A DNA stretch of 64,000 nt from Lutibacter sp. (GTDB taxonomy: Bacteria; Bacteroidota; Bacteroidia; Flavobacteriales; Flavobacteriaceae), in NCBI RefSeq assembly GCF_030692605.1, contig NZ_JAUYUD010000027.1, forward strand, positions 1 through 64,000, in the 5' to 3' direction. Positions 22,111 to 32,821 of this stretch are shown one piece after another (position 1 is the stretch's first letter; each line of letters begins with the position of its first letter). A program made the position numbers and the translations under genes. The notes below the pieces were generated by a model, which made no database searches, was not told the origin of the DNA, and worked only from the letters and a program-made list of their open reading frames with translations.

Positions 22111-22689
22111 TTAAATATCTGTAAGTGTGTAAGTAATTGTTAATGGCGCAGCTGTGTCAACAAATCTTAAAGCTCCATAATTAGCTGCTGCATCAACTGC
22201 ATAACCAAGTTGGTAAGTTAAGTTACGGCCTTTGTTTGCTCCGTCTTCGGTGTAAGCACTTCCAATTGCTGTAACAATATTTTGTGCAGTACCTGTTAAA
22301 ATAAGCTCAGTTGAAGCCGCTCCCAAAGTACCAGCACCACCTGCTGCTGCAGAAGCAAGGACTGTTAATTTTAATCCGGTTGGAACAGTACCATTAGTAA
22401 TGGCAACAGTTACATTTCTTAACAATGCACCTTTAACAATAGAAGAATAGTTCATCCAAATGGCTGAGTTAGTTGCTGCAGCTCCAAAAGTCATTGGCAA
22501 ACCAGCTTCTGATGGCGCTGTACCGGCTAAAGTAACATCTGTTGTACCTGATGCAACTTCAAGATCCAATAAGGCTACTTGAGGAATAGTAATGGTTACT
22601 AAATGATTGGCTGTTTTAGTGTCTTGTGCGAAAGCAGCATTGGCAGATAAAACGATTACAGCGGCGAAAAATAATTTTGTTAAATTCAT
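22111..22689 (-). CDS. small secreted surface-subunit-like protein D
   Basis: A 192-residue protein with a Sec signal (KLFFAAVIVLSANAAFAQ). The mature part, about 170 residues, is predicted all-beta and shares motifs with two genes upstream: ITIPQVALLDLE, SEAG, IWMNYSSIV, GTVPTGLKL, IGSAYTEDGANKGRNLTYQL, and a last strand TITYTLTDI. No known domain is recognised. Alanine- and glycine-rich, unlike the lysine-rich neighbours. I choose the ATG before NLTKLFF; the longer frame upstream is an asparagine/lysine run from the leader. A TACATTTG box is at 22752-22759. I infer a structural subunit secreted by the usher-like protein of this locus. Confidence 0.85.
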   Translation of the reverse strand: MNLTKLFFAAVIVLSANAAFAQDTKTANHLVTITIPQVALLDLEVASGTTDVTLAGTAPSEAGLPMTFGAAATNSAIWMNYSSIVKGALLRNVTVAITNGTVPTGLKLTVLASAAAGGAGTLGAASTELILTGTAQNIVTAIGSAYTEDGANKGRNLTYQLGYAVDAAANYGALRFVDTAAPLTITYTLTDI

Positions 22690-22751
22690 GAGGTTTGTTT
22701 TTTTGTTGTTATTGTTATTTATTTTTTTGTTATTATTTCTTTTTGATGGTA

Positions 22752-22759
22752 CAAATGTA
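22752..22759 (-). promoter_or_regulatory. TAnnTTTG -7 box for subunit D
   Basis: TACATTTG on the minus strand. It would give a leader of about 55 nt made almost entirely of A and AAC/AAT repeats, unusually long for this genome. It implies separate, perhaps strong, expression of subunit D. Confidence 0.5.
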
Positions 22760-22954
22760 AGTCGGCTATTAAGCATAAAAGTCGAAAAACAGGCAGATAA
22801 ACGTTAAGTGTCGATGAATGGTAGGTTTCTTAAGATGAATAAACTTACAGGAAGAAAATAAAGGTGAAATGTGGGAAGTTATATGTTGAATCATTGTTGT
22901 TTGATAAAAATTCATAAAAAATGATTAATCTCAGTGTAAATGGGACATCATAAA

Positions 22955-23100
22955 CAGGTCGCCCCGATGGGGCTTGTTTTCAATGAAAATCTATTTACTA
23001 GAAACAGGACGTCCCGATGGGACTAAAACAGCTCCGTAGGAGCGAAATGTTTGTAGAATATTTTGAAAAGTCAGGTTTAAAGCCCCATCGGGGCGACCTG
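22955..23100. mobile_element. palindromic mobile-type element with 21-bp terminal inverted repeats
   Basis: Perfect 21-bp inverted repeats at 22955-22975 and 23080-23100 enclose about 104 bp. Inside is a diverged direct copy of the left end (about 23003-23024, core GTCCCGATGGGAC) and the palindrome GCTCCGTAGGAGC (23031-23043). There is no coding capacity. It resembles the GC-rich interspersed repeats of Bacteroidota genomes (REP/MITE-like) and lies between two subunit genes. Confidence 0.6.
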
Positions 23101-23145
23101 CTTGTTTTGTGAAATTTAACCGAACAACAATGATGTTGAATATGA

Positions 23146-23222
23146 TAGTAGATATTAGTAGTTAGATATTAGCTATTAGCTATTAGAAGTTAGCTATTGA
23201 ATATTGGACATTGGAAGTTAGC
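23146..23222. repeat. degenerate 7-bp TTAGCTA/TTAGATA array
   Basis: About ten imperfect copies of a TTAG(C/A)TA heptamer. AT-rich, non-coding, typical of flavobacterial intergenic filler; no function evident. Confidence 0.5.
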
Positions 23223-23311
23223 TCAAGTGATGAATTGTCAATTTTTAATTAATTATTCATTCTTCATTATTAATTCAAGATGGTTAAGGATAGAGTGGCC
23301 TGTTTGAGCTC

Positions 23312-23363
23312 TCCCGTTTTTACGGGAAGCGAGTAGCGATAGCCTGACCCGCCAGCTGGCGGG
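23312..23363. repeat. pair of GC-rich palindromes (REP-like)
   Basis: TCCCGT-ACGGGA hairpin (23312-23317/23322-23327) followed by the perfect 16-bp palindrome CCCGCCAGCTGGCGGG (23348-23363), then ggcaggcagg (about 23381-23390). GC content is far above the surroundings. A related CCTGCC/GGCAGG palindrome is inserted in the leader repeat at about 26424-26439. Confidence 0.55.
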
Positions 23364-23441
23364 GAACGCCCACCGAAAAGGCAGGCAGGCCCAAAACATA
23401 TTAAACATAAAATTTTAGCCAATTGCCCAAAAAATGAATTC

Positions 23442-23487
23442 AAAAAAGCACCATCCTGAAAAATGGCTTTGGGAAAGGTGTTTTTTT
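23442..23487 (-). terminator. terminator of subunit C gene
   Basis: On the minus strand AAAAAACACC and GGTGCTTTTTT form the stem, with one bulge and a long loop, and end in a T-run about 20 bp after the stop at 23505. Confidence 0.65.
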
Positions 23488-23504
23488 ATTGGGAAAAAAA
23501 TAAA

Positions 23505-24074
23505 TTAGTTGTCGGATAATGTGTAGTTAATCACCAAGGTATTGCTTTGGTTGAAATCTAACTTTGCATAAGCGTTTGGCTCATCGCTAAGTTTTAAGGT
23601 AAAATGTACATTGTTTCCTTTATGTGTGCCTACGCCTGTATAAGCGCTTCCTATATCGGTAATAATGGTAAGCGGATTAGCCGTAAGCTCCTGTGATGTG
23701 CTGATAGGTCTCCCCATTTTACCGGCTCCGGCGCCCATATCTTTCTCTACTTTAACATAAAGCTTCACGCCATTAGGAATGGTGCCTTCAGCTATACGAA
23801 TGCTAATATCGCGGCTTGGTTGTGTTTGTGAGCCAACAATGGAAGAGTAGTTGATCCAAACGCTGTTGTTTGTTTCTTCCATATTTAAGGCATTTCCGGC
23901 TTCAACAACAGAATTGTTTCCCAATGAAATGGCTGAGTTTGAATAAACATTGATTAAGGCAACTTCCGGTATTGTTATGTTTATTTTATGGCTGCCATGA
24001 CGCTCTTGGGCGCCTAAATTGCCAAACACTAATAAAAATAAGAACATGGCTATATTTTTGTAGGTTGTGGTCAT
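23505..24074 (-). CDS. small secreted surface-subunit-like protein C
   Basis: A 189-residue Sec-secreted protein (signal KNIAMFLFLLVFGNLGAQ). The mature part is a paralogue of subunits A and D: ITIPEVALINV, VEAG, VWINYSSIVGS, GTIPNGVKL, IGSAYTGVGTHKGNNVHFTLKL, and the last strand LVINYTLSDN. The hydrophobic-alternating final strand and conserved glycine loops suggest an all-beta subunit. It lies downstream of the Hpt-type regulator after a 508-bp gap and ends at its own terminator, so it may have its own promoter; a near-consensus TATCTTTA is at about 24155-24162. Confidence 0.85.
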   Translation of the reverse strand: MTTTYKNIAMFLFLLVFGNLGAQERHGSHKINITIPEVALINVYSNSAISLGNNSVVEAGNALNMEETNNSVWINYSSIVGSQTQPSRDISIRIAEGTIPNGVKLYVKVEKDMGAGAGKMGRPISTSQELTANPLTIITDIGSAYTGVGTHKGNNVHFTLKLSDEPNAYAKLDFNQSNTLVINYTLSDN

Positions 24075-24582
24075 TTTTTTGGCTTAAGAAATAATAAGTT
24101 TATCGGTTTTTATGTTTGTTTAACTAAAAAAATCAATTGCTCTATTTAGATTTATTCTAAAGATACAAACAAAAAGTCATTAAGCAATTAAATAAATGAA
24201 TTATTTTACCATTTGTTGTAAAAAATATGCTATTCATTATAATTTATATGCCATTTATATTTTTAAACATCATTTTTGAGGCGTTGAAAAATAGCAAAAA
24301 GGGCATATAACCGCCTCTTTTCATTTAAAGTTACCGTTTTATTTTGAAAAATTTACGAGAGATTGAAAAAAAACAAGTTTGTATTCGGAACTTTTAATTT
24401 TAATGGAAAAATGGTGCAGAAATCTATTCAAAATATATTTCTATACACTTGCAGAAACTTTGCAACAGTAAAAGGAGGGGAATTTTCTAAAAAAATGTAA
24501 TTAATTTCAAAAGACCCAACGTTTTGATAAAAAGCGCGGTGAAAAATTTAGCAATACAAAAAAATGAAATAAAATTTTCGGT
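24075..24582. other. 508-bp gap between subunit C and the Hpt gene
   Basis: AT-rich, no ORF. It must hold the subunit C promoter if C is transcribed separately. I see only a near-consensus -7 box (TATCTTTA on the minus strand near 24160) and no strong dyad. Confidence 0.4.
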
Positions 24583-25221
24583 TTACTTTAGATGCGTCAA
24601 AACAATTTCCACATCCACTAATATACATTTCATATTCTCTTTTTGCTTTTCGGCATCATTTAAAATATGGACATAAACTTCTTTGCACAAGCGTGCGGAA
24701 AGCGGCAAATCCAGCATCGTAAATTTGCTGCTCATTTGGTGCGCCCTGCTTTTTAACTCCAATAAATTGTTGGATTCAATCAATGCCGGAATTTCTTCCA
24801 AATTAAGTTTGAACTCGGTAATCATTAATGATTTTATTTGCTCAAAAAATTCTTCATCATCCATTGCATATTCTTCAATGGCCGTGTAAGAAATGGGTGT
24901 GCTTCGCCATAAAAAATCAAATAATGCCGAATAACTTAAAGGTGATTTTACGCTTGGATAAGAAGTTTCCGACAAATCCAATTCGGCATCATTCACAATC
25001 AACAAAGGAAGTTGAATTAAATTGCCAAATGCCAAAACCGATTCATTTTTAATAACGGATTGAGATACCAAATGTGTGTAAGTGTTCGCATTTAAAGCAG
25101 CATCCAGCCCATTAAAATCGGCCATTATTTCATACTGAATTCCTGTATTATGGTTTAGGCACAATTTTAAGGCTTCTTGCTTTATTTCAGTTTCTTCAAT
25201 AAAAAGTATTTTTACGGGCAT
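24583..25221 (-). CDS. pseudo-receiver plus Hpt-domain protein
   Basis: A 212-residue cytosolic protein. Residues 3-110 have the layout of a receiver domain (VKILFIEETEIKQEALKLCL start, SPLSYSALFDFLW end), but the phosphoacceptor strand reads THLVSQSV, with no aspartate at the usual place. Residues about 120-212 look like a histidine phosphotransfer domain: LLELKSRAHQMSSKFTMLDL gives the H-x-x-(S)-S/K-F pattern with His161. It would relay phosphate between a kinase and a regulator. It lies in the middle of the secreted-subunit genes, 66 bp after subunit B, and the kinase and regulators are at the head of the same locus. Confidence 0.7.
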   Translation of the reverse strand: MPVKILFIEETEIKQEALKLCLNHNTGIQYEIMADFNGLDAALNANTYTHLVSQSVIKNESVLAFGNLIQLPLLIVNDAELDLSETSYPSVKSPLSYSALFDFLWRSTPISYTAIEEYAMDDEEFFEQIKSLMITEFKLNLEEIPALIESNNLLELKSRAHQMSSKFTMLDLPLSARLCKEVYVHILNDAEKQKENMKCILVDVEIVLTHLK

Positions 25222-25286
25222 TGCGCTTGAGTTTAATTATTTTGTTTTTTTAAGTTCTATCTCTTTTACCAATTATAACCTCATTA

Positions 25287-25754
25287 TTAGTGAATCACTG
25301 TGTATGTAATTGTAGTTGAATAATTTTGCACCGGCAACACAACGCTAATACCCGAAATTTCATATTGTAAAGGTACAAAATTATGGGTACCTGTGCAGGT
25401 GAAAAAGTTAGCATCAACGCTTGTAATTGTCTGAAAAATTAAACCGCCACTTATGTTGGTATTCCCATTGGTGCCGTTTGCGGTGCGCTTAACTTTAAGA
25501 TTCAAATTATTGTGCCAAGCAATATTATCTCTGCTGACTAAAACGTTAATCAATTTATTATTATTATTTGGGCTTATTGTCATTAAAGTTTGATTGAGGT
25601 TGCTGACATAAGCGGCTGGGTAATCATTCCCTGCTTCACTGATGTCTGATGCAGCAATGGTTCTTGTCCAATTGCCGGTGACAGAAATATTAATATTTTG
25701 ACTAAACAGCATGTTGCCTATAGCCAAAAAAGCGATGAAGATTAATCTTTTCAT
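25287..25754 (-). CDS. small secreted protein B of the surface locus
   Basis: A 155-residue Sec-secreted protein (signal KRLIFIAFLAIGNMLFSQ). It is shorter and diverged from subunits A, C and D: it keeps an SEAGNDYPAAY segment and the final strand pair VQNYSTTITYTVIH, but lacks the N-terminal PxVALLDLE and the GSAYT loop. Two cysteine-free strands and a single CTGTHN motif are seen; predicted all-beta. Its start overlaps the stop of subunit A by one base (25754), so the two are translationally coupled. It may be a tip or adaptor subunit; that is inference. Confidence 0.75.
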   Translation of the reverse strand: MKRLIFIAFLAIGNMLFSQNINISVTGNWTRTIAASDISEAGNDYPAAYVSNLNQTLMTISPNNNNKLINVLVSRDNIAWHNNLNLKVKRTANGTNGNTNISGGLIFQTITSVDANFFTCTGTHNFVPLQYEISGISVVLPVQNYSTTITYTVIH

Positions 25755-26293
25755 TATAAATCGGTTAAGGTTAAACTAATGGACAATGCTGCTGCCTGGT
25801 TGAAATCCAATAATTTGTAATCGTAAATTTCCAAATAATAGGTAAGTTCATATCCGTTATTGATGCCGTCACCTGTAAATGCGCCCCTTATGTTAGAGAT
25901 AATTGTTTGTGGCGTGCTATTTAAAGTTAAAATTCCTGAAGGTGAACCTAACACGCCTTTACCAATACCCATATAATTTGACGTGCTCAGTTTTAAGTAA
26001 ATTCCCGGAGGCACTTGCCCGTCATCAATTTTAATTAAAATGCTTCTGGGGGCCGCCGTGCTTGTAACAGCTGAAGAAAAATTAATCCATTTTTTGTTAT
26101 TCGCCATCACAACTACAGCCTTTTCACCAGCTTCAGTAGATGCCGCTAAATTTAGCGTTACCGTTGTGTAGTTTGGTTCTAAATCCAACATTGCCACTTG
26201 AGACAGGTTAAATGTTGCGTTAATACTCCCTGTATTTTGGGCGTAATTTGAAATTACGCAGAAACCGCAAATGATGTAAATTAGTTGTTTCAT
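25754..26293 (-). CDS. small secreted surface-subunit-like protein A
   Basis: A 179-residue Sec-secreted protein (signal KQLIYIICGFCVISNYAQ). It is a paralogue of C and D: NLSQVAMLDLE, STEAGEKAV, KWINFSSAV, GQVPPGIYLKL, IRGAFTGDGINNGYELTYYLEI and the last strand LSISLTLTDL. It is the first subunit gene after the usher-like protein. Its start codon lies in a leader sequence that is repeated three times upstream, each copy with its own ATG, and a hairpin (arms 26291-26298, 26320-26327) includes the ATG. Confidence 0.85.
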   Translation of the reverse strand: MKQLIYIICGFCVISNYAQNTGSINATFNLSQVAMLDLEPNYTTVTLNLAASTEAGEKAVVVMANNKKWINFSSAVTSTAAPRSILIKIDDGQVPPGIYLKLSTSNYMGIGKGVLGSPSGILTLNSTPQTIISNIRGAFTGDGINNGYELTYYLEIYDYKLLDFNQAAALSISLTLTDL

Positions 26294-26297
26294 CTGT

Positions 26298-26381
26298 TTA
26301 ATTTTTATTTTTTAGCGGTAACAGATGCTGTTCGCCATTAATCATTCCTTTGTGTGTCAAAATTTGTCTTGCTCGTTTCAT
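26298..26381 (-). CDS. leader mini-ORF 1 (27 aa)
   Basis: ATG at 26381, stop 4 nt before the subunit A start. Product begins MKRARQILTHKGMINGEQ. It shares its start context with subunit A because of the leader duplication. It may be translated and coupled to subunit A or may be a by-product of the repeat; no homology recognised. Confidence 0.35.
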   Translation of the reverse strand: MKRARQILTHKGMINGEQHLLPLKNKN

Positions 26382-26385
26382 CTGT

Positions 26386-26490
26386 TTAAATTTTATTTTT
26401 TAGCGGTAACAGATTGCTGCCTGCCTGCCGGCTGGCAGGTTCGCCATTAATCATTCCTTTGTGTGTCAAAATTTGTCTTGCTCGTTTCAT
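26386..26490 (-). CDS. leader mini-ORF 2 (34 aa)
   Basis: ATG at 26490, stop 4 nt before the ATG of mini-ORF 1. Same sequence as mini-ORF 1 apart from seven extra codons (PASRQAG region) from the 21-bp palindromic insertion, which keeps the frame. Product otherwise MKRARQILTHKGMING. Confidence 0.35.
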   Translation of the reverse strand: MKRARQILTHKGMINGEPASRQAGSNLLPLKNKI

Positions 26491-26509
26491 CTGTTTAATT
26501 TTTATTTTA

Positions 26510-26590
26510 TTAGCGGTAACAGATGCTGCCAGCCTGCCGATACGGATTAACCATTCCTGTGTGCGTCAAAATTTGTTGTGTTTGTATCAT
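26510..26590 (-). CDS. leader mini-ORF 3 (26 aa)
   Basis: The ATG (26590-26588) overlaps the stop of the usher-like gene as ATGA, the classic coupling arrangement. Product begins MIQTQQILTHTGMVN, clearly related to mini-ORFs 1 and 2 for the first half, then diverges by frame. It ends 19 nt before the ATG of mini-ORF 2. Confidence 0.3.
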   Translation of the reverse strand: MIQTQQILTHTGMVNPYRQAGSICYR

Positions 26591-29313
26591 AACTTAAATA
26601 TTTTATCGCTTTTTTTAATCTCTCTATTTTTATTGCTGGCTTTAAAAACGGCCTTAAATTCTTCATTAGATATAATAACCGCTGTTTTTTGCGTTTCGCT
26701 AAAGGTAAAGTCGTTCAATAAATTCTTAACAATCAGTTCAACGTTCCATTCTCCGGGTGAAAGCTCTTTAAACCAAAACTTGCCGTCCTTGTCGGTTTTC
26801 GTGTAATAGGTTTTATCTCCCTTGGTTATTTTCACGATTAAGTTAGGCATTTTTTTTATATATTGTGAAGATTGCATCAATGTTGTTTCTTCAAAAATAA
26901 TTTGCCCAAATAAAGCGCCTGTGTTTCCCATTTCAAGAAACACTTCCGTTTCTTTATTAGGCAAAATGTCTATATCAATAGGCTGTTGCATAATAATAAT
27001 TTTATTTTTTGGCAAACTCGATTGTTTGACGTACAAACGATAGGTTTTGGGCTTTAAATTATAAAAGTGGAACACTCCTTTTTCATTGGTTATTGCAATA
27101 TGGTCGTCCAACAAAACAAGGATGCCTTCTAAATTTGTTTTTTCGGCAGAAATTATTTTGCCAATTAAAGAGCCCACCGTTTTATTTTTTGAAACTGGCA
27201 CGTTCATTACCAAACTATAAGATGCCGTAATTAAAAGTTCCTTTTTTATGGGAAAAACCGGCAAACTCGTTTGCGAAACGGCAACACTTAACAAGTGTTT
27301 TTTCTGATAGTTGTAATTTAATTGCGCCTGTAAATAATTTTGGGCATCATCCAATTCATCAAAATCGTAATTTTTTTTATAAAATACATTCAGATTTAGG
27401 TACGATTTTAAATTGTAAATTAAATTTCCGCCATAATAAAATGTTTTAACAATTTCATTTTCTGCGGATTGCTTGTTGCTTTGCTGGTAATCACCATTTA
27501 AGCCCAAAATTAAATCTTTAAAAACATTTCCCGAAATACTTAAAGAACTGAAAAACGTGTTTTGGGGAACGGTGCTTTCCGCCAAGAAATTGGTGGTTTT
27601 TCCAACCCGGTTTTGCCAACTTAAATTGTATTTAAAAGGCATTCTGCTATAAAATGAAAGCGTTGCCAATTTTTCTTCAAAATTGTAAGACTGTAAACTT
27701 AACTGATCTTCCTTGTTTCTGAAATAACCACCTACTCTAATAGTATTGTTTCTGTTCACATTATAATTGAAATACGCCTCATATTTGGTGATTATTGGCG
27801 AAGCGCTGTAATTAATGGTGTCTTTAACTGGATTTATAGCGCGATAATCCACGCCAATCTGCATATCGATTTTATGGTTAAACCGGTAATTTGCCAATGA
27901 CAACAATTGTTTGCTGTTTCTTATATAACCTTTATAGTCTTTATCTGAATATTGAACAGAATTAATCAAATCCAGTTTCTTCAAATTTAAATATGCGGCT
28001 AAAGAATAGGCAAGTCCGTTTGTTTTATAATTGCTTTCATACGCCACTTCCCCGTTAATTTTAAATCGGTCAATGGCATAAAAAGAAGCGATATTAAAAA
28101 TTTGGGAATTAAATTCTTCGTTGTCTTCAAAAAGGGTTCTGTTTATAAATCCCGCTTCAACATACGCTTTATCGGATAAATCTTGCGAAATTTTACCGCC
28201 ATAGGAATCGGATATTTGTTTTGTGAATTTTGGTTGCACATAAAATAACGAAGCCGTTGTTTTCCCAAAATCATAGCTTACAATACCGCCTGTTCCATAA
28301 CGCGATGTTTCCGTAATATTTGAAAGTGAAAAATTTACATGCCCTAAAAGCGCTTCCATTTTTTTATTTTTGTAAAGCACGCTGTACCTTTCAAATTCCC
28401 CAAACCTCACAATATCACTTTGACTTGGACCAGAATATTCAAAATTTAAATAATGCTCATTTCCCCTATCCAAAAAACCTTGACCGCTCACTTTAAATTT
28501 AAAAACATTTAAGGTATCTAATCCTTTTAAAGAATTAAAAATGGTTGAAAAAGTGATTGGAAACCGATGGTACAAATCGGGTTTTTTTGTGTTATTTGGA
28601 TAAAGCGTTACCGCCACCCTATTGGAAAACGCCAAGTCTTTTGAAACAATATAGGCTTTTAAGTTATTTAAAACCATTGTTTTGCTGCTAACGTTTCCCT
28701 GTACTTGCTGAAAAACGGCGACAACCATGGAAGAATCCGGTTTCAACAAAGCATTTGCGGGCACAATTTTAAGCGCGTTGCTCGATTCAAAAGTGATTTT
28801 TTCTTCGCTGTTTCCGTTATTTGTCACCAAATATTCACAATAAAATTCTTTTTCAAGCCTCAAATATTCAGGTGCCATTATAACTTCAACAGCCAAATTG
28901 TATAATTTAGGCACGTTAAGGAATACTTCCTGGGTAGCCACTGGCCTATTGTTTATATTATCGGTAATTTTTAGCAACGATTTATAATTGCCGGCTGGGT
29001 TATGGTTGTTAACGCCAAAGGTAAATAGCACAATTTTTTTATTATTTGCCTCAACAACCACCTTTTTATTGTTATTTGTCAAATAAAACTGATTGGAAAC
29101 CTCAAATTCACAATTTAAATTTAGTGGATTGTCGGTTTTATTTGAAATTTCGAATACAATGGTGTAATTTTTTCCGGGAACTAAATTTTCAGGAATATTT
29201 TTTGTTGAAATTTCAACAGCATTAGTTTGCGCTTTTACTTCAGACATTGACATAACTATCAATAAAAAAAGAAAAAAAGAAGTTATTGGTGCTATTTTTG
29301 GGATATTTCTCAA
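26587..29313 (-). CDS. usher-like outer-membrane beta-barrel protein
   Basis: A 908-residue protein with a signal peptide (PITSFFLFLLIVMSMSEVKAQ). Residues about 30-250 are two Ig-like/NEW3-type domains (YTIVFEISNKTDNPLNLNCEFEVS; EYLVTNNGNSEEKITFES). About 260-705 is a long run of alternating amphipathic strands with aromatic girdles (DIVRFGEFERYSVLYKN, AYFNYNVNRNNTIRVGGYFRN), as in an outer-membrane barrel. The C-terminus has two carboxypeptidase-regulatory-like domains (about 713-790 GSLIGKIISAEKTNLEGILVLLD; about 800-880). The plan resembles fimbrial ushers, but no PapC-type usher motif is recognisable. It lies directly behind a chaperone-like gene and ahead of the secreted subunits. Translocation of the subunits is inference. 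Confidence 0.75.
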   Translation of the reverse strand: MRNIPKIAPITSFFLFLLIVMSMSEVKAQTNAVEISTKNIPENLVPGKNYTIVFEISNKTDNPLNLNCEFEVSNQFYLTNNNKKVVVEANNKKIVLFTFGVNNHNPAGNYKSLLKITDNINNRPVATQEVFLNVPKLYNLAVEVIMAPEYLRLEKEFYCEYLVTNNGNSEEKITFESSNALKIVPANALLKPDSSMVVAVFQQVQGNVSSKTMVLNNLKAYIVSKDLAFSNRVAVTLYPNNTKKPDLYHRFPITFSTIFNSLKGLDTLNVFKFKVSGQGFLDRGNEHYLNFEYSGPSQSDIVRFGEFERYSVLYKNKKMEALLGHVNFSLSNITETSRYGTGGIVSYDFGKTTASLFYVQPKFTKQISDSYGGKISQDLSDKAYVEAGFINRTLFEDNEEFNSQIFNIASFYAIDRFKINGEVAYESNYKTNGLAYSLAAYLNLKKLDLINSVQYSDKDYKGYIRNSKQLLSLANYRFNHKIDMQIGVDYRAINPVKDTINYSASPIITKYEAYFNYNVNRNNTIRVGGYFRNKEDQLSLQSYNFEEKLATLSFYSRMPFKYNLSWQNRVGKTTNFLAESTVPQNTFFSSLSISGNVFKDLILGLNGDYQQSNKQSAENEIVKTFYYGGNLIYNLKSYLNLNVFYKKNYDFDELDDAQNYLQAQLNYNYQKKHLLSVAVSQTSLPVFPIKKELLITASYSLVMNVPVSKNKTVGSLIGKIISAEKTNLEGILVLLDDHIAITNEKGVFHFYNLKPKTYRLYVKQSSLPKNKIIIMQQPIDIDILPNKETEVFLEMGNTGALFGQIIFEETTLMQSSQYIKKMPNLIVKITKGDKTYYTKTDKDGKFWFKELSPGEWNVELIVKNLLNDFTFSETQKTAVIISNEEFKAVFKASNKNREIKKSDKIFKL

Positions 29314-29365
29314 ATTAAAACTGAAAAAAAACAGTGATTTTTAGTGTCATTTTATATTTATACCA

Positions 29366-30148
29366 TTATTTATTTTCAAACTCTAAATCGATGGAATAAA
29401 TGTTTTTGCCGTAATCGGCAACCAATACAGCCGTGTAAGCGCCTTTTGGCAAGCCAGAAATATCAAGCGCAAATGCTTTACAGGAATTAGGATACACCTT
29501 TTTAAATTTAACTTCCACCTTTTTTTGTTGTTCACCGTTGACATTAAAAACTTCAAGTATTAAAGTAGGTTCCACATAAAATGTCCCTAAATTTTTAATG
29601 TCAACATTAATGAGTTTATTCCCGTCTTTTTCCTCAATTTTGATGTCATAAAATTCGAGTTCAGAAGGCGTTCTTTCATTAATGTCGGCAATAATTTGAA
29701 TTCCGTATCTAACTTTTGATTCCAGCTTTACGCCAAATTCAAGTTCATCTTCTTTAATTGGTTTTTCAATCTCAACCATTAAAACGCCCCAATAGGAACC
29801 GTCAAACTCAACATCATTGGGCACATTGATGGTGTAAATAAGTTCATATTCTTCATTTGCCTGAAAAACGTGCTCATTTACATTAGTTGACAACCAATTT
29901 TTGATTGAATTTTTGTGGGTGACATCAGCCGTTAAAACAGTTTCTTTGCCGCATTCTTGTGTTAAATCGTTAAAATAAATAATGACACGCTCCTCCGTTT
30001 TACCGTTATTTTTTATACTGATAACCCCGGTAATTAATTGTCCGGAAGCTGTTTGGTGCACATGCGTTAAGCCATTTAAAATAACGATGTTGGCATTTGA
30101 GAACTGAAAACTTAAAAATAAGAAAAGAAATAGTAGGGATTTTTTCAT
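29366..30148 (-). CDS. periplasmic chaperone-like protein
   Basis: A 260-residue Sec-secreted protein (signal KKSLLFLFLFLSFQFSNA). Two all-beta domains are apparent. The first starts GLTHVHQTASGQLITGVISIKNNGKTEERVIIYFNDL and ends near DGSYWGVLMVEIEKP, a pattern seen in pilus chaperones and in WxL-interacting DUF916-like proteins. The second is ELEFYDIKIEEKDGNKLINVDIKNLGTFYVEPTLILEVFN to the end, ending in a barrel-closing strand. No membrane anchor. Position directly before the usher-like gene fits a subunit chaperone, but no family match is certain. Confidence 0.65.
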   Translation of the reverse strand: MKKSLLFLFLFLSFQFSNANIVILNGLTHVHQTASGQLITGVISIKNNGKTEERVIIYFNDLTQECGKETVLTADVTHKNSIKNWLSTNVNEHVFQANEEYELIYTINVPNDVEFDGSYWGVLMVEIEKPIKEDELEFGVKLESKVRYGIQIIADINERTPSELEFYDIKIEEKDGNKLINVDIKNLGTFYVEPTLILEVFNVNGEQQKKVEVKFKKVYPNSCKAFALDISGLPKGAYTAVLVADYGKNIYSIDLEFENK

Positions 30149-30198
30149 TTTTTAAAAATTTATTTTATGAGTAAAACAAGGTTTATAAGCTATATAAT

Positions 30199-30915
30199 TT
30201 ACAGCAAATTAAGACGTTTCATTAATTCGGGTTTGCTGGACCTGCTGACGGGAACAACATTTTTTCCAATTAACACGCTGCTGTCTTCTATATCAACAAT
30301 CTTTTTTATGTTGATGATAAAAGACCTGTGCACTTTCAAAAACACGGCATCCGGTAATTTGTCTTCTATTTTTTTTAGGGTTGAATGCACCGTGTAATTT
30401 TCCTTGTCGGTTTTAATCAAAATATAATCGCCTTTTGCTTCAATTAAATTGATGCTGTCATAACTAATTTTCACCAGACGTTTATAAATATTGACATACA
30501 AATCACTTTTAGAATCTTCGTTGGCCGGAATTACCGGCAAATCTTTAATCTCTATTTTTGAATTGAAAAACAACTTAGCCTTGTCAACGGCCTTGTCAAA
30601 GCGAATTTGGTTGATTGGTTTTTCCAAAAAATCCACCACACTATTGTATTCAAAAGCCTCTAAGGCAAAATTTGCGTGAGAACTGATTAAAATAACTTTA
30701 GGCGGATTTTTTAAAGTTTGCAATAAATCAAAACCAGTAAAAGCTGGCATGTGAATATCTAAAAAAAGGAGATCAACACTGTTTTGGTTTAAATATTTAA
30801 GCGCTTCAATAGGGTTGTTAAAACTGTTAACCAGATCTAGGTTTTTATTGTTTGAAATTAATTTTTCAAGTATTACTCTTGCAATCTCTTCATCATCAAT
30901 AATAATACACTTCAT
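30199..30915 (-). CDS. LytTR-family response regulator
   Basis: A 238-residue two-domain regulator. The receiver domain (1-120) has IIIDDEE and the phosphoacceptor Asp53 in DLLFLDIHMP, with SSHANF and the lysine in FLEKPI. The C-terminal LytTR DNA-binding domain (about 145-238) has YKRLVKISYDSINLIEAKGDYILIKT and FLKVHRSFIINIKKI. I choose the ATG of MKCIIIDDEE; a longer frame upstream overlaps the kinase gene. It is probably the transcription regulator of the surface locus: it lies between the kinase and the chaperone-like gene. Confidence 0.9.
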   Translation of the reverse strand: MKCIIIDDEEIARVILEKLISNNKNLDLVNSFNNPIEALKYLNQNSVDLLFLDIHMPAFTGFDLLQTLKNPPKVILISSHANFALEAFEYNSVVDFLEKPINQIRFDKAVDKAKLFFNSKIEIKDLPVIPANEDSKSDLYVNIYKRLVKISYDSINLIEAKGDYILIKTDKENYTVHSTLKKIEDKLPDAVFLKVHRSFIINIKKIVDIEDSSVLIGKNVVPVSRSSKPELMKRLNLL

Positions 30916-30982
30916 GGGAGTATGTTTTAGGTGATTTACAACTGTAAAGATACCCTTTTTTGATTCATTAAAGTACAATCTT

Positions 30983-31696
30983 TTAGGCTTCATTCGCCTT
31001 ATTTTTCGGCAACGTAAAATAAAATGTGGTTCCTTTTAAAACTTCACTTTCCAGCCAAATTTTCCCTCCGTAGAGTTCAATAATTCTTTTTGCCATGGGA
31101 AGACCTATACCCGTAGATTTTTCATGATACCCAAGCGTTGTAAATATTTCAAATATTTTTTCATGGTATTCTAGTGGAATTCCACTACCATTGTCTTTAA
31201 TTGAAAAAACGTAAAAATCTTCAACTTCATTAACAGCAACCTCAACCAAGCCTTCTTCTTTATCATTGAAGTTAACAGCATTGCTTATTAAATTCTGAAA
31301 AACTTGTCTCAATCTTCTTGCATCAGCCTTTAAAACAGGCAATTTATCCTTTACAACCACTTTAATATTTTTGGGGATATCAATGCTGTCTAAAATTTTA
31401 TCCACCTTTTTATTCAGATCTATGGTACTGGTTTTTAGGCCAGTTACCCCAATCTCCGAGTAATTTATAATGTCTTCTAAAAATTTATCCATCTTTTCAA
31501 TTTTCTCCTCCATAAGGTTTAAATTGCCAACACTTTCTTCACCAATTTTTTCACTGCAATCCTCCTTCACCCAAGTTAACAATGCCGAAAGGCTTCTTAA
31601 AGATGATTTTAAGTCGTGCGAAACCAAATGCGCATAGTCATTTAACTGCTCATTTTGGTTTTTCAATTTTTGAAGCAACTGTTTTTTTTGATACAT
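30983..31696 (-). CDS. soluble sensor histidine kinase
   Basis: A 237-residue kinase without membrane or sensor domains. A short coiled coil (about 1-20) leads to the H-box LVSHDLKSSLRSL with His27, then the DHp helices and an HATPase domain: N-box NLISNAVNFND, G1 DNGSGIP, and GIGLPMAKRIIELYGG. It is coupled to the preceding receiver protein (10-bp gap), which may be its input. It probably phosphorylates that protein, the LytTR regulator or the Hpt protein of this locus. Confidence 0.9.
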   Translation of the reverse strand: MYQKKQLLQKLKNQNEQLNDYAHLVSHDLKSSLRSLSALLTWVKEDCSEKIGEESVGNLNLMEEKIEKMDKFLEDIINYSEIGVTGLKTSTIDLNKKVDKILDSIDIPKNIKVVVKDKLPVLKADARRLRQVFQNLISNAVNFNDKEEGLVEVAVNEVEDFYVFSIKDNGSGIPLEYHEKIFEIFTTLGYHEKSTGIGLPMAKRIIELYGGKIWLESEVLKGTTFYFTLPKNKANEA

Positions 31697-31706
31697 TACA
31701 CTATTA

Positions 31707-32120
31707 TTAAGCTGTTACAAACTCATTATAACACCAGTAATCCAATACTCTTTTTATTGATTCAGAATAATCGGTGAATTTTAAAGGTTTTACCAAATAA
31801 CCCGCAATACCAAGTTGGTGACAATCTGATACATCTTTATGGTCATTTGATGAAGTTAAAATAATGGTTGGAATATATTTTAAATCGTTATTCTTTCTTA
31901 TGATGGTTAAAAATTCGAGGCCATTTATTTTTGGCATATTTAAGTCCAACAAAATAATATCTGGCAATGACTCATTTTTATATAAAATATTCAAAGCTTC
32001 TTCCCCGTTTTTAGCTTCAACAATGTTGTGGGGACACGCCAATTTTGAAATTGTTCTGTTAAATTTCATGATTTCTATCATGTCATCTTCAACAAGCAAA
32101 ATGTTTAGGCTTTTTTTCAT
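31707..32120 (-). CDS. single-domain (CheY-like) response regulator
   Basis: A 137-residue receiver domain only. LLVEDD holds the acidic pocket (D12-D13), Asp59 in DIILLDLNMPKING is the phosphoacceptor, LTSS and YLVKPLKF supply the conserved Ser/Thr and Lys. There is no output domain. It heads the minus-strand locus and is followed at 10 bp by the kinase. It likely acts as input or intermediate of the phosphorelay. Confidence 0.9.
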   Translation of the reverse strand: MKKSLNILLVEDDMIEIMKFNRTISKLACPHNIVEAKNGEEALNILYKNESLPDIILLDLNMPKINGLEFLTIIRKNNDLKYIPTIILTSSNDHKDVSDCHQLGIAGYLVKPLKFTDYSESIKRVLDYWCYNEFVTA

Positions 32121-32338
32121 TAGTAGTTTTTTTAAAATTATTTCATATATTTTTAATGTTAGTGATTAAAAATAATCATCAAAGATCATAAGAATGCATT
32201 ATTTTTATGAAATTATTCGATAAGTCTTAATTAAGTGTCGATGAGCTGTAACTTATTGTCGATGAATGAAAAAGGAAAACAAACTAAATACTTAGCAACA
32301 AATTAAAATTAATTCGTTCTTTTGCCTAAATTGGTTAA

Positions 32339-32821
32339 ATGAAAGCGGTCACCGTAAAAGAAATAAAAACAGAATTGTCGCATTATTCCCAAAAAGAATT
32401 GGTGGAACTTTGTTTACGTTTGTCGAAATTTAAAAAGGAAAATAAGGAATTACTTACCTATCTTTTGTTTGAATCCTCCAATGAAGAAGGCTATATCAGC
32501 AGCATAAAATTAGAAATTGATACACAGTTTGAACTTATAAATACAAAAACGTATTATTTTATTAAAAAGAGTGTTCGTAAAATTTTACGAATGGTTAAAA
32601 CGACTATTCGTTATTCAAAAAACAAAGAAACTGAAGTAGAACTCCTCCTCTATTTTTGTATAAAATTAAAAGATTTTAAACCTTCCATAAATAATAATAA
32701 TGTGCTTAAAAATCTATTTATCAGAGAAATAGAATCCATCAAAAAAAAGATATTGCTTTTACATGAAGATTTACAATATGATTATGAGTTGGAGATAGAA
32801 AAGATAAAGGGTAAAGAGTAA
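32339..32821 (+). CDS. conserved hypothetical helical protein
   Basis: A 160-residue, lysine- and leucine-rich, all-helical protein with no signal or membrane segment. The start motif VTVKEIKTELSHYSQKELVELCLRLSKFKKENKELLTYLLFE recurs in many flavobacterial proteins I have seen, but I know no function. It is divergent from the two-component locus (218-bp gap). Its last codons and stop are part of a GTAAAGA tandem array. Confidence 0.75.
   Translation: MKAVTVKEIKTELSHYSQKELVELCLRLSKFKKENKELLTYLLFESSNEEGYISSIKLEIDTQFELINTKTYYFIKKSVRKILRMVKTTIRYSKNKETEVELLLYFCIKLKDFKPSINNNNVLKNLFIREIESIKKKILLLHEDLQYDYELEIEKIKGKE

Follow-up and report, generated by a model that had tools for sequence, protein, structure and literature searches.

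Chaperone-usher pili are the textbook system, with one usher family and one chaperone family. In the fim operon of K-12, the genes follow the order fimA-C-D-F/G-H, i.e., major pilin, chaperone, usher, minor pilins and tip. Type V pili (FimA/Mfa) are surface fibres of Bacteroidota that are thought to use donor-strand exchange. For Gram-positive WxL clusters, parts of PMC10599100 describe a WxL-interacting protein (WxLIP) of two immunoglobulin (Ig)-like domains, predicted to stand mostly at right angles, whose hairpin strand is predicted to insert into WxL beside the WxL N-terminus, and a passage of PMC9772566 proposes that the N-terminal strand of WxL rearranges. Here, we compare these systems with a gene cluster of a Lutibacter sp. 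genome (3.1 Mb, 99.99% complete; GCF_030692605.1), located at 22111-32120 of a 64,000-nt window (contig NZ_JAUYUD010000027.1, positions 1 to 64,000). The cluster very probably encodes a chaperone-usher-like fibre assembly pathway. It would be chaperone-usher-like in its working, yet stands outside the classical pathway by the two defining sequence families. A description of this system was not found in the open-access literature (titles and abstract starts; preprints and most subscription journals were outside the scope).

An earlier note, made from the sequence by a model, had listed ten genes on the minus strand, and the open reading frame (ORF) check found all ten at the place and in the order given. 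Following transcription, they encode a receiver (rec), a soluble histidine kinase (kin), a LytTR regulator (lyt), a 260-aa proposed chaperone (chap), a 908-aa barrel protein (ush), the small subunits A and B (sA, sB), a phosphotransfer protein (hpt) and the subunits C and D (sC, sD). The core is formed by the chaperone, the barrel and the subunits A and B, plus the A-like subunits C and D. We scanned named genomes with the chaperone alignment as the sole query, such that the neighbouring genes count as separate evidence, and obtained 44 loci from Lutibacter, Chryseobacterium, Leeuwenhoekiella, Runella, Dyadobacter, Sphingobacterium, Saprospiraceae and others. Four of them end at the chaperone and one within the barrel. 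Where the contig continues, the barrel always comes next after the chaperone (40/40; L068 has one extra subunit gene in between), and an A-type followed by a B-type gene comes after the barrel in all 39 loci with full flanks. A major-subunit gene precedes the chaperone by at most 300 bp in 26/44 loci and lies further away in two more, i.e., these 26 show the full pilin-chaperone-usher-minor-tip order as in fim. In the window itself, unlike this arrangement, sC and sD lie downstream. Among culturable strains, Lutibacter oricola DSM 24956 has the five-gene core, and Runella zeae is a further example. Since whole gene orders recur in relatives, the cluster is not a product of chance; the genome survey proposed in the earlier note thus came out in its favour, as the cluster recurs as a unit in other genomes.

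With own genome counted, barrel matches were found in 18 of 60 genomes searched, and a phylum-wide Bacteroidota sample contained the chaperone in 46/392 genomes and 28/179 genera. With the own genome set aside, this sample lists 54 chaperone places, of which we inspected 37 (one per genome); 20 of these 37 neighbourhoods hold a match of the usher hidden Markov model (HMM) near the chaperone. Of the groups of large proteins compared by hhalign, two divergent ones match the usher profile (99.9%, E=2e-34 and 100%, E=8.4e-86). A third group (grpS) does so over 78 C-terminal columns only (90.8%), and both of its scanned members carry SPOR domains; we infer that the large proteins of this group are barrels, too.

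The earlier note had guessed at a DUF916/WxL-type partner among the ten proteins, and this guess was right. The 260-aa protein matches only the second WxLIP domain, WxLIP_HBD, and this below the curated cut-off (Pfam, E=7.7e-5). Among 28 members of its family, 15 match WxLIP_HBD (best 1.4e-10) and nine match WxLIP_PGBD (best 1.2e-6; Pfam, E<=1). That is, both WxLIP domains (DUF916 and DUF3324), a feature of WxL clusters, are matched at the family level via homologues. Aligned with eight actinobacterial WxLIP-type proteins, the chaperone profile reaches 97.4% (hhalign, E=1.3e-11, about 206 columns), compared to 0.1-0.2% for the kinase, LytTR and Hpt profiles used as controls. The barrel profile reaches 38.3% (E=3.3e-4) via the Ig-like region at its N-terminus; some of the signal may hence be common to such Ig proteins in general. 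A PF06030 profile search of the own genome missed the chaperone; it took the family, not the single protein, to reveal the WxLIP link. Judged by these profiles, the 260-aa chaperone is homologous to the Gram-positive WxLIP.

The actinobacterial WxL and WxLIP reference sets comprise eight proteins each and were chosen by NCBI naming, gene order and few Pfam matches: among four scanned small proteins, WxL is over the cut-off in one and below it in one; among four large proteins, WxLIP_PGBD is over the cut-off in one and below it in three. Locus L182 was left out (no gene is annotated under its match), and an Arthrobacter DUF916 protein showed no WxLIP match at E<=0.05. The plasmid loci L177, L179-L181 and L183-L186 hold small WxL-like and WxLIP-type genes, several of them annotated as hypothetical only. 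A PDB sequence search returned one chance match each for the chaperone and the subunit profile. By analogy, the strand insertion predicted for WxLIP is what a donor-strand chaperone would do. The earlier note had also proposed to check the predicted folds of chaperone and barrel: the barrel model is indeed a large barrel, while the putative chaperone fold is assigned solely via the WxLIP homology.

The AlphaFold model of ush (predicted local distance difference test, pLDDT, 82.3; predicted TM-score, pTM, 0.53) contains N-terminal beta domains (residues ~33-237), a barrel of roughly 24-27 strands (~248-722) and two C-terminal CarboxypepD_reg/transthyretin-like domains, which Pfam reports as well. 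When compared with 350,542 chains by Foldseek, the first nine ranks all go to FimD (eight chains) and PapC (one chain), with E from 3.8e-16 to 1.5e-11, and VIA gives Z values of 16.5 and 16.0 for FimD and 16.1 for PapC. The first N-terminal domain matches a complement C4 domain (VIA, Z 14.2, root-mean-square deviation 2.1). In PDB sequences, the barrel profile finds the transthyretin-like domain of NOMO2 (E=1.4e-12) along with weaker beta-domain matches. The model supports a large barrel with a usher-like overall architecture, which is not a close structural match.

The subunit paralogy seen by the earlier note is clear for sA, sC and sD, which are mutual paralogues with 35-39% identity; sB, on the other hand, is related to the major subunits at the profile level only (hhalign, 96.3%, E=1.8e-9, extension region gapped). 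From the presumed mature start (glutamine) to the EAG column, we counted a median of 38 residues for major subunits (range 35-51, n=34), 35 for the A-type (30-54, n=28) and 19 for the B-type (16-28, n=28). That is, sB lacks the N-terminal extension of about 17 residues found in the other subunits, and by analogy this difference in length would be as expected for a tip versus a chain subunit. The AlphaFold model of sD (pLDDT 89.8, pTM 0.79) has CfaB in its chaperone complex as first Foldseek match (E=0.015, prob 0.98), and the first 12 matches include an archaeal filament, the Tafi pilus, TasA, SafA and CS20. Within the VIA list, chaperone-usher pilins make up 33 of the 50 rows shown; 22 of these 33 are aligned from model residue 36-40 onward, i.e., their alignment starts after the N-terminal extension of sD.

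Taken against the fim, pap and csu systems, the locus shares the gene order pilin-chaperone-barrel-minor pilin-tip, a large barrel that by model has N-terminal and two C-terminal beta domains, and Sec-secreted pilin-like subunits of which one lacks the extension. It differs in its chaperone, which belongs to the WxLIP family and shows no PapD match (PF00345, Pfam, E<=1), and in its barrel, which is not recognised as PF00577 (absent from the 13 Pfam families listed for ush), lacks a plug and begins with the C4-like domain. With the Type V pili of Bacteroidia it has in common that both concern Bacteroidota surface fibres. In contrast to these, no lipobox was seen by eye in the subunit signal peptides, the FimA/Mfa families are not among the Pfam matches of 22 A/C/D-type and 28 B-type members, and the window system has a dedicated barrel and chaperone. 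A weak link is given by a subunit of a distant group, which matches FimA-like_C at E=0.005, i.e., below the cut-off. No signal of homology to FimA was obtained with the single E. coli sequence, and no C-terminal secretion domain of the type IX secretion system (T9SS) is listed by Pfam for the subunits.

The WxLIP homology also allows for a different kind of system, namely a Gram-negative WxL-type surface complex. Here, the WxLIP-like protein would keep small proteins in stable association with the cell surface or the peptidoglycan, where they serve as an adhesion platform; the complex would be anchored or displayed by the barrel, and a polymer would be absent. Beside the homology itself, this reading draws on actinobacterial plasmids where the gene of a small WxL-type protein is followed by a WxLIP-type gene (each domain over the cut-off in one protein), a small-protein-then-WxLIP order shared with the window, and on subunit C-termini that by eye resemble the second WxL motif. 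With these C-termini and the proposed rearrangement of the WxL N-terminal strand (PMC9772566) in view, we considered the subunits as WxL domains and rejected this, as a profile signal is missing: the WxL domain (PF13731) has no match in the genome at E<=10, and the window-type subunit profiles reach 0.1-4.6% against the actinobacterial WxL alignment (hhalign; one distant small-protein group 15.9%). Furthermore, the hydrophobic C-terminal segment, i.e., the transmembrane helix, of WxLIP is not seen by eye in the translated window chaperone, and the window adds an outer-membrane barrel. Given that operon order, the missing extension of B and the barrel are better explained by polymer assembly, we regard such a complex as improbable.

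Several results weigh against a chaperone-usher-like reading. For the barrel, the TM-scores by query against usher chains are 0.27-0.30 only, at the pTM given above. PF00577 has no match in the whole genome at E<=10, where the E. coli control is matched, and the comparison with FimD yields no sequence signal (hhalign, 1.5%, single E. coli sequence). A plug domain is absent, i.e., 27 strands are modelled within 248-722 and the longest inter-strand gap is 13 residues. VIA ranks the barrel of the Mtr complex (Z 19.9) over the ushers, and porins and TonB receptors reach Z values of 13.7-15.8. For the chaperone, there is no sequence signal to FimC (hhalign, 0.1%, single E. coli sequence). For sD, Foldseek has no match at E<=0.001, its weak matches include a dUTPase, an esterase and an RNA polymerase, and the VIA list has Z values of at most 7.0 and contains integrin and cannula rows. 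The named loci are not independent, as many come from Lutibacter and Chryseobacterium. Among the 37 phylum-sample loci, 11 chaperones adjoin an ORF of 930-1240 aa without a usher HMM match and six are without a large protein (L146, L148, L153, L158, L170, L171).

Since non-usher barrels score comparably by VIA, the barrel alone is not usher-specific. The barrel could hence be a passive porin, transporter or adhesin, with independently secreted small proteins as mere operon neighbours; large barrels of other function indeed score close behind the ushers. However, all 39 fully flanked loci keep chaperone, barrel, A and B strictly in this order, and other phyla have similar gene sets, which makes this very improbable. 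Alternatively, the same mechanism could be present by descent, such that the cluster would belong to the classical chaperone-usher family, having diverged too far for its sequences to be recognised, and would not represent a separate usher family. The operon logic equal to fim, the ushers on the first Foldseek ranks and a PapD_N chaperone in a Polaromonas cousin (see below) speak for this descent. As PF00577 and FimD give no signal, the plug is absent and the Mtr-complex barrel has the higher VIA Z, we consider it unlikely, though a good deal less so than a passive barrel; in mechanism, it overlaps with our best explanation.

The chaperone-usher-like pathway builds on what is directly established here, i.e., gene order and its conservation, the WxLIP homology, the predicted folds, the missing extension of B and a conserved DNA box described below, and from there we infer strand donation, polymerisation, export, phosphoryl flow and DNA binding. 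The subunits A-D would be exported by Sec. In the periplasm, the 260-aa protein would bind a subunit with an incomplete beta-sandwich and complete its fold with a strand. The 908-aa barrel would act as usher; from its architecture, the N-terminal Ig-like domains may recruit chaperone-subunit complexes, the lumen may be the exit pore and the two C-terminal transthyretin-like domains may hold the growing fibre. Donor-strand exchange would then join the subunits, each N-terminal extension being given to the previous subunit. Without an extension, sB would start the fibre as its tip, followed by sA as a putative adaptor and by sC and sD as alternative or combined shaft subunits. The main idea of the earlier note, an unnamed analogous pathway in which the barrel exports the subunits, is thereby supported by operon order, the usher-like barrel ranking, the pilin-like matches, the missing B extension and the WxLIP homology.

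Cousins of the system are found, by sequence comparison, in Deinococcota and, by an indirect link and with a PapD-type chaperone, in Pseudomonadota. A plasmid of Deinococcus deserti has the order subunit, chaperone, 839-aa large protein, subunit, where the chaperone scores 138.9 bits (E=9.4e-43) and the large protein 69.3 bits (E=1.1e-21), with E-values computed over the ORFs of two loci only. This chaperone is named as FimB/Mfa2 family; its Mfa2 match has 21.7 bits against a cut-off of 21.2 and covers 58 residues. On plasmid 2 of Polaromonas sp. JS666, the order is DUF4402, a 206-aa protein, DUF4402, a chaperone recognised as PapD_N with E=1.6e-5, which is over the cut-off, and finally a large protein of 896 aa. 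Like the window, this operon combines small subunits, a chaperone and then a related large protein; it differs in that the chaperone is recognised as PapD_N and the subunits as DUF4402, for which the open-access literature search found nothing. For the Polaromonas large protein, there is a match to the large proteins that accompany WxLIP-like chaperones in one group of Bacteroidota (99.8%, E=1.2e-27, 771 columns), while its match to the window barrel family is confined to the C-terminal domains (hhalign, 73.9%). As a further point on the negative side, the Polaromonas chaperone matches the window chaperone family weakly (hhalign, 44.8%), so it is the large protein and the gene order that connect WxLIP with PapD_N.

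These cousins raise the tentative possibility, which we rate somewhat short of even, of a separate outer-membrane fibre assembly pathway that spans Bacteroidota, Deinococcota and Pseudomonadota and has a usher family of its own, together with a chaperone from the WxLIP family. If true, Gram-positive WxL/WxLIP pairs would be chaperone-pilin pairs of the same ancient system without a usher, and PapD and WxLIP would be branches of one chaperone superfamily. One superfamily that spans PapD, WxLIP and the window chaperone family is plausible. The results suggest that the same job may be done, across Bacteroidota and beyond, by a second family of large barrels together with a different family of chaperones. 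They offer testable functions for many proteins that are at present termed hypothetical, DUF4402, DUF916 or carboxypeptidase-regulatory-like, and would link Gram-positive WxL clusters with Gram-negative pilus chaperones.

Coordinates of all features are collected in Table 1; signal peptides and cleavage sites were judged by eye. While the earlier note was right about the presence of sD, its start had to be corrected. The 221-aa ORF for sD starts upstream of a TAnnTTTG element that is common to all 11 compared sD upstream regions, and we thus placed the start at the ATG at 22689, in agreement with signal peptide and relatives. For lyt, a true start at about 30915 (238 aa) is more likely, judged from relatives of 237-246 aa. 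The barrels of close relatives have 906-908 aa.

Table 1. Genes of the cluster and candidate regulatory elements (window positions).
Feature	Position	Strand	Description
rec	31707..32120	-	CheY-like single-domain receiver, 137 aa; Response_reg E=7.3e-23 (Pfam); opens the cluster in the Lutibacter clade
kin	30983..31696	-	soluble histidine kinase, 237 aa, H-box His27; HATPase_c 1.6e-27, HisKA 0.0033 (Pfam)
lyt	30199..30993	-	LytTR response regulator; LytTR 5.4e-20, Response_reg 1e-17 (Pfam)
chap	29366..30148	-	WxLIP-family, Sec-secreted, proposed periplasmic chaperone, 260 aa; WxLIP_HBD 7.7e-5 (Pfam)
ush	26587..29313	-	usher-like outer-membrane protein, 908 aa, TTG start; CarboxypepD_reg 3e-9, two stretches (Pfam)
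sA	25754..26293	-	minor pilin-like subunit, 179 aa, with N-terminal extension; A-type by position after barrel and alignment
sB	25287..25754	-	proposed tip/initiator subunit, 155 aa, without N-terminal extension
hpt	24583..25221	-	phosphotransfer protein, 212 aa; Hpt E=0.088 (Pfam)
sC	23505..24074	-	major-type pilin-like subunit by alignment, 189 aa; has its own upstream region, which is conserved in relatives
sD	22111..22689	-	major-type pilin-like subunit, 192 aa; AlphaFold model
LytTR box (proposed), upstream of rec	32231..32243	-	CATCGACACTTAA; exact CAYCGACACTTAA match; half-site 21 bp further upstream (~32258-32266)
LytTR box (proposed), upstream of sD	22804..22816	-	CATCGACACTTAA; exact CAYCGACACTTAA match
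-7 promoter element (candidate), for sD	22752..22759	-	TACATTTG; TAnnTTTG in 11/11 sD upstream regions

Pfam agrees with the receiver, kinase, LytTR and carboxypeptidase-regulatory-like assignments of the earlier note. Its phosphotransfer protein is weak in Pfam, yet His161 is invariant in all eight homologues compared; the N-terminal half of this protein looks receiver-like by eye and is without the Asp. Invariant as well are His27 of kin (6/6 homologues compared) and Asp53 of the lyt receiver (8/8). The note had counted this phosphorelay as part of the system, which does not hold: rec-kin-lyt lies 5' of the chaperone in 11 of the 44 named loci, all of them Lutibacter-like, and most others have no such genes beside the core. 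The phosphorelay is an addition of the Lutibacter clade and stands outside the core.

In that clade, a phosphorelay would consist of the receiver, the soluble kinase, the Hpt protein and the LytTR regulator, and its output would bind a box found upstream of both rec and sD. The pattern CAYCGACACTTAA occurs exactly at two places in the genome, i.e., upstream of these two genes. Within 14 genomes of the genus, we found 16 exact places in 11 genomes, compared to one for the reversed control. By position, 13 of the 16 are upstream of cluster genes, one of these before a C-type gene; the other three lie on further contigs. A slightly relaxed box core is present upstream of rec in 9/9 and of sD in 10/11 regions, and 8 of the 20 rec and sD regions have a half-site exactly 21 bp further upstream of the box, a spacing known for LytTR direct repeats. 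Allowing one mismatch, the rec/sD pattern has 7 places in the genome versus 4 for the reversed control, so only exact matches are telling. From the sequence, the lyt regulator probably binds the boxes upstream of rec and sD. TAnnTTTG is the -7 promoter consensus of Bacteroidota. Upstream of sC (24190-24265), degenerate AAATGGTA-like repeats about 21 bp apart are seen by eye and are clearer in relatives; the exact AAATGGTA pair pattern from upstream of sC has no match in the genome. Perhaps they are the box of another LytTR regulator, e.g., of those beside sC-type genes in L033 and L035.

The earlier note took the repeats around the cluster as a hint of mobility, which we reject for the close clade. 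In 10 of the 12 loci whose barrel has an identity of 76% or more, a flanking gene is shared with the window, either on the pyrR-pyrB-rnz side or on the side of a 160-aa gene and dus, and the other two are on contig fragments. The common flanks argue against recent movement. The repeats at 26.3-26.6 kb are dispersed in the genome. In 72,556 plasmid records, neither the window barrel nor sC has a match, and the window chaperone is matched on three Deinococcus plasmids only.

Some minor observations concern relatives and neighbouring DNA. The loci L038 and L039 hold divergent systems of two relatives, with barrels of 1032 and 1150 aa and LytTR regulators, and one of the two genomes additionally holds a close copy of the window cluster. 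L146, L148, L153, L170 and L171 belong to one Bacteroidota genus (g85) with strong chaperone homologues and no barrel detected alongside. Divergent from rec, a 160-aa protein is encoded at 32339-32821; at 6 of the 12 close loci it is kept beside the cluster, with 83-89% identity, and it may be part of the system. Between sC and sD (22918-23420), there are palindromes that resemble repetitive extragenic palindromic (REP) elements, of the types CAGGTCGCCCCGATGGGGC and GCCTGCCTGCC. The stretch from the barrel stop to the sA start (26294-26587) is taken up by three direct repeats of about 90-109 bp, each of which spells a short ORF that stops just 5' of the next ATG. The relative L023 has one copy of this repeat. 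We inspected five further copies in the genome; four of them run up to the start codon of a gene, and two of these four lie between head-to-tail genes.

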